Source: Armatimonadota bacterium (GTDB lineage: Bacteria > Armatimonadota > Fimbriimonadia > Fimbriimonadales > GBS-DC). From it: a stretch of 64,000 bases of DNA. The notes beneath the pieces were generated by a model. That model did no database searches. It was given only the letters and a program-made list of their open reading frames with translations, and had not been told where the DNA came from. The stretch spans positions 62,001-126,000 of the forward strand of contig JABWCR010000003.1 of NCBI GenBank assembly GCA_013359125.1, in the 5' to 3' direction. Positions within the stretch are counted from its first letter, which is position 1. Each line of letters begins with the position of its first letter. Shown piece after piece: positions 6,064 to 11,795 of this stretch. Made by a program: the position numbers and the translations under genes.

Positions 6064-6921
6064 CTATTCGATTCCGTGTCCGTTGCAGAGCGGTGTGTCG
6101 TCCGGACGAGGCGCCTCTGGATCGAAAATGACTCGGGCGGCGTTATAGTTCACGCAGAAGCAATTGGGGTCAGGCCCCACCACGCGCCAGTTGGCCAGCG
6201 TTCTTGTCGGGGTCGCCTTCACATGCCCGTCTGCAAACACCATGTTGCTCACGCCGACATAGAGCCGAAAAGCGTTCGGATTGCTGGGCACGCCACCTTG
6301 AAGAAAATCTCTGCCCGTTCCTCGATGCCGATCCGAAATGGCAAACCCGCGGTTGATGCCGTTGCAAATGTTCACCCAATAGCCGCCAAAGCCCGAGGTG
6401 TTGAGATTAGGTCCGGGCACGCCGTCGGTGATGACCGCGGTCCGAACTGGCTCGTCCAGTCTCGACATGTGGAGATACCGGCATTGATTGTTTCGCGTGT
6501 AATACGCATAGTTCCAATAGGGCGTCAGGTAGCTGTTCATCCCAATCGGCTGAACTCGATAGTCGAAGTTTTGAGGCAAGTCGTTCAGTCCAAAATGGGT
6601 GCCAGGGGTCGTGCTGGTCGATGTTGGGCACAAAAGCACCCCTAGGTTCTTCACATACGGTTGCAGGGTGCCGGTCCATACCTCGTTATTCGACACGCCT
6701 TCGCCCGTGCAGCCGCCTTTCACTAATTGAACGACGTACTCGTCCCAATCTTGGGCGTACATCATCCAGGCCGTGCCTAGCTGCCTCATATTGCTGCCGC
6801 ACTGCGTCAGCCTGGCAGACTCGCGAGCCTGGGTAAACACAGGAAATAGAATAGCCGCCAATATCGCTATGATCGCGATCACGACTAAGAGTTCAATAAG
6901 CGTAAAGCCCCGTCGGTTCAT
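6064..6921 (-). CDS. Pseudopilin with DUF1559-type domain
   Basis: Secreted or surface pseudopilin of 285 residues. ATG 6921 has a Shine-Dalgarno GGAGG about 10 bases upstream and starts a textbook type III prepilin signal: MNRRG, then [18 protein letters not shown] with Glu at +5 after the cleavage site, so prepilin peptidase should cut after Gly5. The conserved Phe-Pro-Val-Phe and [15 protein letters not shown] segments that follow, and the C-terminal VFADGHVK motif, are hallmarks of DUF1559 proteins abundant in Planctomycetes and Armatimonadota. The longer frame to 6969 adds residues with no role. It is first in a two-gene unit and is divergent from the metalloprotease. Confidence 0.9.
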
Positions 6922-7055
6922 AGTTCGCACACCTCCATCGGCCTCTATTATACGATAATTTTGGGGCAAATCCTGCGCCCTGTAGAAGGAATCCGTTCCG
7001 GGCTGGTTGAATATATGCGCGACGTAGAAATCTTAGAAGCAAGAGGAGCAGGGAT

Positions 7056-8430: not shown

Positions 8431-8717
8431 CCTTATCCCCGCTATCCACATAGTCCGGGGATAGCCGCGTGAACGAGCGTGGAGCGTGCCGCGCCTCTAC
8501 TATTTGTTCACAGTCCCGTTTGTCTTATCCACACTCCCCAAAGAGTTGTCCACATTTCGGTTTCTACGTATTCCCGCCGATCTAACCTCGGATTCTCGCC
8601 CGCTCTTGATCTTATCCACATATCCCCGTGCTAACAAAGAATCAGAGTCCTTAATAAAAGGAGGTTGGGATTCTTAAAGGGCTGTGGACGGAGGTCGCCA
8701 GATATACTTACTCCGTC
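8431..8717. other. Candidate chromosomal replication origin (DnaA-box cluster)
   Basis: A gene-free stretch of 287 bases. Exact DnaA boxes TTATCCACA are at 8525-8533 and 8612-8620. One- or two-mismatch boxes in the same orientation are CTATCCACA (8442-8450), TTGTTCACA (8504-8512) and TTGTCCACA (8546-8554), plus a weak TTATCCCCG (8433-8441) and a reverse TGTGGACGG (8683-8691). An AT-rich patch at about 8646-8680 (CCTTAATAAAAGG and TTCTTAAAGG) could be the unwinding element. recF and dciA, both replication genes, follow at once. Downstream genes run mostly on the plus strand. dnaA and dnaN are not in the window. A box cluster of this density before recF is characteristic of oriC, but the call is an inference. 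Confidence 0.7.
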
Positions 8718-9842
8718 ATGTGGATCCGGAGCCTTCAGGTCAGGAGCTTCCGAAATCTGAGCGCCGAAGAGTTTTACCCCGACCCTGGACTCAACGTCAT
8801 TGTTGGTCCAAACGCGCAAGGGAAAACGAATCTCTTGGAGGCGATCTTCTACGCCGGGCGGCTTACTCCATTCCGAGGCTCGCGCGACGCCGATCTCGTG
8901 CTCCATGGTCAGTCCGTAGCATGGTTGCTCTGCGCGTACGAGAGGGACGGCTCCCGAGAAGAAATAGAGATTGAGATTCCAACCTCGGGCAGAAGGCGGT
9001 GCAAGATCAACGGCTCGCCCGTCCACCGTTTGTCCGATGCCATCGGTCGCCTATCGGTCGTCAGCTTCTGCGCGACCGACCTGGCCATCGTCTCCGGAGA
9101 GCCGTCCGATCGTCGCCGGTTCTTAGATGACAACTTGGCCTCGATAAGCCATAAATACCGCTCCGCGATTGAACAGTACAAGCGATGCCTGGAGCAGAGA
9201 AACGCGCTCCTTAGAAACTACGCCGAAAATCGAGGGGGATTGGACGATCTGCCCGACTGGGACGCCCAGCTCGGCAAACACGGAGGCCGAGTAATGGCCA
9301 TCCGACAACTCTTTCTAACCGACCTAAACGGCAGGGCGAGCGCGATCCACCCAGAACTCTCTAACGGAAAGGATCGACTAAAATTGGAGTACCATCCAGC
9401 GGTTCAAGAAGGCAGTTCGACCACAGAGGCCGAATGGGCTGATAGATTGTTGCAATCGTTGCAACTGAACGCGAAGGAGGAGCAGCGCAGAGGCATGACC
9501 CTTTCTGGCCCTCATCGAGACGACTTTGTTGCCTATGTGGACGATAAAGACGCCCGTAGTTTCGCCTCGCAGGGCCAGCAGCGCACGGCCGCCCTTAGTA
9601 TAAAGATGGCGCAGATCGGACTGGTCGAAGATCGGCTCAAGCACGCGCCGATCGTGCTGTTAGACGATGTCTTCAGCGACCTAGACCCCAATCGTCGCCA
9701 AGACCTTATGAAGTTCTTGGAGGGCCGCGCCCAAACACTGATTACCTGTACCGACCTCGGCTCGTTTAGCGACAAGATACTGGAGCGCGCAAGGATTACG
9801 CGCGTATTGGGCGGGAGGCTGATGTCGATTGAAAAAACTTGA
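8718..9842 (+). CDS. recF: DNA replication and repair protein RecF
   Basis: SMC-like ATPase that helps RecOR load RecA at single-strand gaps. The Walker A motif GPNAQGKT is at residues 30-37, the ABC signature region TLSGPHRDDF is near 258-268, and Walker B with the D-loop (IVLLDDVFSDLD) is near 312-323. Length, 374, is usual. TATACT at 8703-8708 ends 9 bases before the ATG and there is no Shine-Dalgarno sequence, so the message may be leaderless. The reading frame overlaps the dciA start by 14 bases. In many genomes recF lies in the dnaA-dnaN-recF origin cluster; here the origin-like DnaA boxes are upstream but dnaA and dnaN are absent. Confidence 0.93.
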   Translation: MWIRSLQVRSFRNLSAEEFYPDPGLNVIVGPNAQGKTNLLEAIFYAGRLTPFRGSRDADLVLHGQSVAWLLCAYERDGSREEIEIEIPTSGRRRCKINGSPVHRLSDAIGRLSVVSFCATDLAIVSGEPSDRRRFLDDNLASISHKYRSAIEQYKRCLEQRNALLRNYAENRGGLDDLPDWDAQLGKHGGRVMAIRQLFLTDLNGRASAIHPELSNGKDRLKLEYHPAVQEGSSTTEAEWADRLLQSLQLNAKEEQRRGMTLSGPHRDDFVAYVDDKDARSFASQGQQRTAALSIKMAQIGLVEDRLKHAPIVLLDDVFSDLDPNRRQDLMKFLEGRAQTLITCTDLGSFSDKILERARITRVLGGRLMSIEKT

Positions 9843-10368
9843 AAAAGCAGCCGATGCAAAGTTAGGCGCATTGCGTCGGCTGGGTATCGACAAAGAGTAC
9901 CTGGACCGAACGGTGGTCGACTCCTGGCCGGACGCCGTCGGACGACAGATCGCTTCGGCTACTCAGGCGAAAAGCCTCGATCGAGGCGAACTGGTCGTCG
10001 CCGTCAAGAACAGCGTATGGCTGCAAGAAATCCAGTTCCACCTCCCAGAAATACTCAATCGCCTCAACGCCCTTGCCGGCAGAAAAGCGGTCAAGCGCAT
10101 AACCCTCAAGATTCTGCCGATACGAACGCGAAAAATCGAGTCCGCGCCCGCGCCCAAAGAACCAAACCACATCGAGGTCGAAATCCCAGACCCGCCCGAG
10201 TTCGCTGGCGTACCGACCGATCTTCAGGCGAGTTTGAAACGCGCATGGGTCGGCAATGCGCGACTAAATGCAATCCGGATGGCGATGGGATGGCGAGCCT
10301 GTATCGCGTGCGGAGTGCCGCACGATGAGGAGACCCCTTTGTGCGCCGTCTGCCGCGGCTATCGATAA
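9829..10368 (+). CDS. dciA: DciA-like (DUF721) helicase operator with C-terminal zinc ribbon
   Basis: The N-terminal 100 residues match the DUF721/DciA family (WPDAVGRQIASAT, then DRGELVVAVKNSVWLQEIQF), a KH-like domain that helps load the replicative helicase DnaB in bacteria lacking DnaC or DnaI. A C-terminal extension carries a four-Cys zinc knuckle at Cys158/161/172/175 (CIACG, CAVC), which is not part of the core family. Start codon is TTG 9829, preceded by GGGAGG and overlapping recF by 14 bases. Position beside recF and the origin-like region supports a replication role. The gene overlaps the comEC GTG start by 28 bases. Confidence 0.8.
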   Translation: MKKLEKAADAKLGALRRLGIDKEYLDRTVVDSWPDAVGRQIASATQAKSLDRGELVVAVKNSVWLQEIQFHLPEILNRLNALAGRKAVKRITLKILPIRTRKIESAPAPKEPNHIEVEIPDPPEFAGVPTDLQASLKRAWVGNARLNAIRMAMGWRACIACGVPHDEETPLCAVCRGYR

Positions 10369-11795
10369 GACTTTTCGAATCGCTGCGCCATCGCCCGGCA
10401 ACCTGGTCGTTGATAGGGCTCGTTTCGGGTCTTTGCCTGGCCGAAGCCCAGTGGCTGTCCGGCCCGCTGATCGCCGTTCTTTGCCTGGCCTTTTCTCTCG
10501 CTCTCAACCCTCGCTGGATCATTCCCGCGGCGCTGCTCGCTCTTGGCTTCTATCGATACTGGTTCGCCGTCGGCCCGGCAGAACTCCCAAGAGGCTCCGT
10601 CCAACCACCTATCGTCGCCCAATGCCTGGAGGATGCCGAGCCGACGCGAAACGGCCATCGAGCGCTCGCGAGGGTGTCCGACAGGCACAAGGCCTATCTC
10701 TATCTCAACGGGCCATGGGATCGACTGCCCGAGCGCGGACAATGGGTGGAAATTGCACGGCCTCTGACGCCGATCATCCGTACCCGAATGCGCGAGCCGT
10801 ACCTCCGATTCCTGATCAAGCGCCGAATCGCTTACACCGCCTCGCTCTACCCGGGCGACCTGAAAACCCTCAGCCCGCCCGACTCAGGACTTGCAGCGAG
10901 AATGGCCGATTCTCGCCGCGCTTTCCGAACCCGGCTTCGTGCAGCCATGCCGGAAAGAACCGCCGCGGTCGCCGAAGGGGTGATTCTTGGCGCAGGATCC
11001 GACTTTCCCAAGCGCGACAGAGAACGCTTCGCCCGATCGGGCCTGGCGCATATGCTCTCGGCTTCTGGCTTGCACGTCGGCGTCGCAGCCCTAATTGTAA
11101 CGTGGCTGACCGGGCTATTGCCGTGGCCGTTTTGGTCGCGGCGAGCGCTGATCCTAGCCGCCGTCTGGCTCTACGCCGCAATGGCAGGCTTCAACCCGCC
11201 CATTGTGCGCGCCGCGATCATGATCTCAGCTTGGGCGATCGCGCCTCTTATCTGGCGCGAGTTCGACGGTCTCTCCGCTCTCGCCTGTGCCGCCGTCGTC
11301 TGGCTGATCATCGCCCCAAACGCCCTATGGGAAGCCGGATTTCGACTCTCGTTCGCCGCCATGATCGGGATTCTGCTGCTCTACATCCGCATCAAGCGAC
11401 CATTGGAGAGTTCCCTAAGACCGCTGCCTTACAAGCCTCGACGTTTCATTGCAGGAGGCGCCGCGGTATCGATGGCCGCCCTGATAGGCCTCCTGCCTGT
11501 CCAGGCATCGACCTTTGGGTTCTTTCCCGTCATGTCCATTGCCGCGAATCTTCTGGCCAGCCCGGCCCTGCCCGTCGTCATGTTCGGCGGCGCGATCGCA
11601 GCTCTTTGGCCTTGGCTTGGCGGATTGATCGCCGACCTTGGCTCTCGCTGGATCCTTTTTGTCGCAGACCGCCTCGGAGATCCGACGGCGCCCGTTCTGA
11701 GCCTGCCCGCACTGCCCGATTGGGCGATCCTCGCCTATCTTGCGCTCTTGCTGGCTCTAGCGCCGGAGCCGGCGACCGAAGACCCATTGGAGTAG
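10341..11795 (+). CDS. comEC: ComEC/Rec2-type competence membrane channel
   Basis: Polytopic inner-membrane protein of 484 residues that would form the DNA-uptake channel. The N-terminal portion has a hydrophobic pair of helices followed by an OB-like extracytoplasmic domain (about 90-200); the conserved competence domain begins near residue 205 with AEGVILGAGSDFP and contains HMLSASGLHVGV and a run of helices. The usual C-terminal metallo-beta-lactamase domain of long ComEC proteins is absent; the protein ends after the last helix. Start is GTG 10341 with AGGAG upstream, inside dciA. No comEA is adjacent. Confidence 0.85.
   Translation: MRRLPRLSIRLFESLRHRPATWSLIGLVSGLCLAEAQWLSGPLIAVLCLAFSLALNPRWIIPAALLALGFYRYWFAVGPAELPRGSVQPPIVAQCLEDAEPTRNGHRALARVSDRHKAYLYLNGPWDRLPERGQWVEIARPLTPIIRTRMREPYLRFLIKRRIAYTASLYPGDLKTLSPPDSGLAARMADSRRAFRTRLRAAMPERTAAVAEGVILGAGSDFPKRDRERFARSGLAHMLSASGLHVGVAALIVTWLTGLLPWPFWSRRALILAAVWLYAAMAGFNPPIVRAAIMISAWAIAPLIWREFDGLSALACAAVVWLIIAPNALWEAGFRLSFAAMIGILLLYIRIKRPLESSLRPLPYKPRRFIAGGAAVSMAALIGLLPVQASTFGFFPVMSIAANLLASPALPVVMFGGAIAALWPWLGGLIADLGSRWILFVADRLGDPTAPVLSLPALPDWAILAYLALLLALAPEPATEDPLE

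Follow-up and report, generated by a model that had tools for sequence, protein, structure and literature searches.

A predicted DnaA-box and DnaA-trio replication origin at recF-dciA in the Fimbriimonadales

Introduction

The basal unwinding system (BUS) of bacterial origins consists of a DnaA box, a spacer of up to 16 bp and repeated NAN trios (PMC8287927), and the Bacillus subtilis type of oriC that carries it (PMC8287927, PMC6669920) has the same parts as the locus considered here: one or more DnaA boxes, a short spacer, DnaA-trios with a central A and AT-rich DNA to be opened. Our site differs from that type in its address, at recF-dciA and away from dnaA and dnaN, in the degenerate trios of the copy under study, and in the layout seen in relatives, where a TTTGAACTCAAA-like element separates two groups of boxes spaced 86-89 bp from each other. 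From the same order comes Fimbriimonas ginsengisoli Gsoil 348, in which dnaA, dnaN, recF and gyrB are likewise dispersed and the GC skew is jagged; no box cluster was found in this published complete genome, the oriC of the Fimbriimonadia was left unlocated, and the origin was put near 5.13 Mb from the skew (PMC4072686). In the papers that we consulted we found no located replication origin for the Armatimonadota. Origins beside rsmG (gidB) occur in other bacteria, and five relatives (G001, G012, G024, G031 and G033) resemble them in carrying their modules near rsmG or its glycosyltransferase neighbour, whereas the rsmG of the genome studied here, on contig C24, has no box cluster. A precise sequence-level prediction of an origin that is not at dnaA-dnaN, in a lineage this deep, is directly testable, and the recF, rsmG and dnaA addresses provide a natural series for studying how origins relocate.

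A cluster of DnaA boxes in front of recF

The window, that is, the whole stretch of 64,000 nucleotides that was analyzed, covers positions 62,001-126,000 of contig C3 (205,549 bp) in a draft genome of 2.82 Mb (47 contigs, 100% complete). Between a VOC-family gene and recF lies the predicted oriC region (8431-8717, + strand), a place upstream of recF that is conserved in the order. The original prediction of two exact boxes and at least three variants in one orientation holds: six TTATCCACA-like boxes are found on the + strand, two of them exact (8525-8533 and 8612-8620), two with one mismatch (CTATCCACA at 8442-8450 and TTGTCCACA at 8546-8554) and two with two mismatches (TTGTTCACA at 8504-8512 and the weak site TTATCCCCG at 8433-8441), while the box search returned none on the minus strand of this region. 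The exact and single-mismatch boxes, four in all, lie inside 180 bp, and more than two such boxes occurred in 0 of 200 Markov-shuffled windows. The whole draft genome holds 10 exact TTATCCACA boxes, and a same-strand TNTCCACA pair with a gap of 3-33 bp exists only at 8431-8717 in its 2.82 Mb (the reversed-pattern control gave one). Neither the exact-box nor the box-pair search found a second or denser cluster elsewhere in the draft genome, including beside dnaA, where a denser cluster had been named as the finding that would speak against the site.

Two of the features by which a DnaA-dependent oriC is recognized, an intergenic cluster of DnaA boxes and an AT-rich unwinding region alongside, are present in this interval. 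The second, expected at the right-hand end and found there, is a candidate unwinding region at 8621-8680 with 40% GC, compared to 58.7% for the window, which places it among the lowest 0.4% of the window's 60-mers. Within it, 12 bp past the exact box at 8612-8620, lie candidate DnaA-trios on the + strand (AAC-AAA-GAA, 8633-8641, or alternatively TAA-CAA from 8632), and beyond it the minus strand carries GTCCACA (8683-8689), half of an inverted box, which is weak (three mismatches as a 9-mer) and sits where relatives have a conserved inverted box.

Profiles agree with the genes first proposed to the right of the cluster: recF (8718-9842, +; TIGR00611, 331 bits, cut-off 172) and dciA of the replicative helicase operator family (9829-10368, +; PF05258, 64.4 bits, cut-off 24). 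A single-sequence search of a collection of genome contigs found no close relatives of this recF. The absence of dnaA-dnaN from the site was also confirmed, as the replication genes are scattered, with dnaA on C13, dnaN on C28, and recF with the box cluster on C3. A switch in gene orientation had been claimed as well, of which the right side stands (mostly plus for about 30 kb) and the left does not, being mixed, with the two nearest left genes also plus. The single dnaA (421 bits) keeps the DHTT box-reading motif, from which we infer that the genome encodes a DnaA able to read TTATCCACA. The region upstream of dnaA was considered as oriC and rejected; its conserved TTATACACA corresponds to a -10 promoter (TGTGTATAAT) read on the complementary strand, and it contains no box cluster. 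Among the other genes nearby, a ComEC/Rec2-type competence gene lies immediately past dciA (10341-11795), and a DUF1559/prepilin-type N-terminal methylation protein is encoded on the minus strand at 6064-6969.

A conserved layout upstream of recF

The sequences preceding recF were collected from about 50 genomes of the order and set in the direction of recF, and many relatives displayed one layout: one or more boxes, a TTTGAACTCAAA-like element, another box, a spacer of 13-14 bp, DnaA-trios (TAA-TAA-CAA-TAG) and an inverted box close to recF. The first boxes lie near -195 from recF, often as two boxes 12 bp apart, and the next box near -100; the TTTGAACTCAAA-like element, a palindrome that lies about 53 bp ahead of that next box, is present with at most one mismatch in 8 of 22 sequences, versus 0.8% of random stretches. 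In the window, the two exact boxes are 87 bp apart from start to start, as at the recF of relatives, and the trio-proximal one at 8612 aligns with their invariant box. Same-strand TTWTCCACA pairs at 86-89 bp were found in 8 of 113 genomes of the order, the window's included, one in each and all just upstream of recF, while the reversed pattern gave 0 in the same 113 genomes.

The combination of a box, 12-15 bp, TA[AG] and two NAN trios occurs in 16 of 38 recF upstream sequences of the sister family (f3) under the strict form and 18 of 38 under the loose one, and nowhere in 3.8 Mb of background searched on both strands. The spacer of 13-14 bp in most relatives fits the published BUS rule (PMC8287927); under a definition of a box, a spacer of 0-16 bp and at least three NAN trios, the relatives are clear cases and the window is a marginal one (12 bp, AAC-AAA-GAA). 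Near the box, the window reads TAA-CAA and then AGA, compared to TAA-TAA-CAA-TAG in relatives, the published type being 3'-GAT-5' (TAG or TAA).

With no denser cluster found in the genome, none at dnaA, and an origin-type layout with trios conserved in relatives, the candidate reading is supported, and we regard 8431-8717 as probably the chromosomal replication origin; the comparative evidence across the order is stronger than the window's own box cluster. In this reading, DnaA would bind the same-strand boxes at 8504-8554 as well as the one at 8612. Starting from the latter, it would extend over the DnaA-trios in single-stranded form (8632-8641) and melt the AT-rich DNA at 8621-8680, after which the helicase would be loaded, possibly via DciA, whose gene adjoins recF. 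Binding, melting and firing at this site are predicted steps. Across the Fimbriimonadales, recF-dciA is best read as the ancestral place of oriC, which would have stayed there after dnaA and dnaN moved away. The site is most likely a DnaA-box/trio origin of a known kind, with an unusual address and a layout specific to the lineage; there is also evidence for relocation.

A diverged copy and modules at other loci

A sequence model, R1, was trained only on the recF sites of the sister family, leaving the window's family out. In dozens of genomes its best match lies in front of recF, with E-values that reach 3e-21; 17 of those genomes had given training sequences. In F. ginsengisoli (G038), R1 places the module at 1,929,665-1,929,807, so that the conserved module predicts an origin at 1.9297 Mb, upstream of recF, and not at ~5.13 Mb (PMC4072686). 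In the window's own family, modules were matched at recF (G009), rsmG (G012, G031) and dnaA (G018), full-length or nearly so in these four genomes and partial in G001, G024 and G033.

On the window region itself R1 gave no match with filters, and without them only fragments of 5.3 and 4.3 bits, for which reason we call this copy diverged; its trios are also poor. It retains the place, the 87 bp spacing, the box-spacer-trio order, the trio-proximal box and half of the inverted box; the TTTGAACTCAAA-like middle element is not recognizable in it and the trios are short.

Within the family, nine exact boxes lie at the recF of G009, whereas G001, G012, G024, G031 and G033 have none at theirs and carry their box cluster beside rsmG and a glycosyltransferase gene (rsmG was profile-confirmed in G012, and elsewhere the cluster's neighbor gene was recognized by similarity); the cluster of G018 is beside dnaA-dnaN. 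Seven copies of the module from this family align and share their internal order. We give roughly even chances to the idea that in one family the oriC module as a whole, with its box array, its palindromic TTTGAACTCAAA-like element, its box, its trios and its inverted box, changed its address between recF, rsmG and dnaA-dnaN while keeping this order, such that origins may relocate as units, independently of the replication genes.

Such relocation invites another explanation for the window, namely that recF was the ancestral oriC, the active origin has since moved elsewhere in this genome and the copy left behind is a decaying remnant. This explanation would fit the same-family relatives in which the module has gone to rsmG or to dnaA, and it would fit the imperfect trios of the window copy, which also lacks a clear TTTGAACTCAAA element and an R1 match, but neither another cluster nor an R1 match was found elsewhere in the window genome's assembly, and the relatives that moved the module keep zero boxes at recF where the window keeps two exact and two near-exact ones. 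We therefore consider a remnant unlikely and an origin at 8431-8717 the preferred reading.

In the copies of relatives some further details were observed. The dense DnaA-box array of G018 (L187:5075-5400), with TAATAATAATAA trios, is on the 3' side of dnaA, with dnaN at the opposite side of that gene in divergent orientation, and this is the only family member seen with the two genes adjacent. The copies of the f1 family (L125, L186, L188 and L189) contain further conserved palindrome-like elements between their boxes, TTTAGCNNGGCTAA and CGACCGCGCGGTCGA.

GC skew and the remaining alternatives

A cumulative GC-skew minimum had been proposed as a test of the site and is not seen there on the window's own contig; the curve keeps falling through 8431-8717, the skew being negative on either side, strongly until about 10 kb rightward and then flat, with no sign change. 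Two complete relatives are supportive of the predicted origin: in G077 the cumulative skew bottoms at 2.16-2.66 Mb, spanning both recF (2.216 Mb) and dnaA (2.66), and in G001, of the window's family, the sampled minimum at 2.11-2.13 Mb adjoins the relocated module at 2.139 Mb, far from the box-less recF at 0.815 Mb, with a local sign change in 2 kb bins around the rsmG module that is weak once the net trend is removed. Two or three others are contradictory. In G034 the skew flips at dnaA, where there is no TTWTCCACA box, and not at recF despite a fine module; in G047 it flips in a box-free stretch at 2.684-2.861 Mb, 50-227 kb from a recF with degenerate boxes; and in F. ginsengisoli its sign is wrong at recF. 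Pooled over ten relatives, recF was positive in 8 (p = 0.15) and dnaA in 6 (p = 0.20), neither being significant. Since skew is jagged in this class (PMC4072686), it is a weak test of an origin here.

The skew of G034 and G047, pointing away from recF, together with the position of the cluster directly upstream of a gene, could suggest a DnaA-regulated promoter or a datA-like DnaA-titration site before recF-dciA, with oriC elsewhere; but the fixed order of box, spacer and trios is an origin-opening feature that neither titration nor repression needs, and a weak search of the region found no sigma-70-like promoter. Moreover, the module also exists without recF, at rsmG and at dnaA, and is therefore not merely a recF promoter, which leaves this explanation quite improbable. 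A chance cluster of DnaA-box-like words is scarcely credible, for although TTATCCACA-like words also occur elsewhere in the genome, including the 10 exact copies, none of the 200 shuffles matched the density, and place, spacing and neighbors repeat in relatives. An oriC in front of recF-dciA is accordingly the reading that we retain.

Two minor observations concern the skew of relatives. Segments of 20 kb in G047 (L198, L199, L218 and L219), G034 (L224 and L225) and G001 (L114) have a strong, uniform skew of about +/-0.15 to 0.28 that is independent of gene strand, flips without a TTWTCCACA box and, in G034, is at odds with an oriC at recF. The complete genome of G077 contains, at C1:2392660-2392782 and within its flat skew minimum, a second exact TTATCCACA pair, the two boxes being 114 bp apart.
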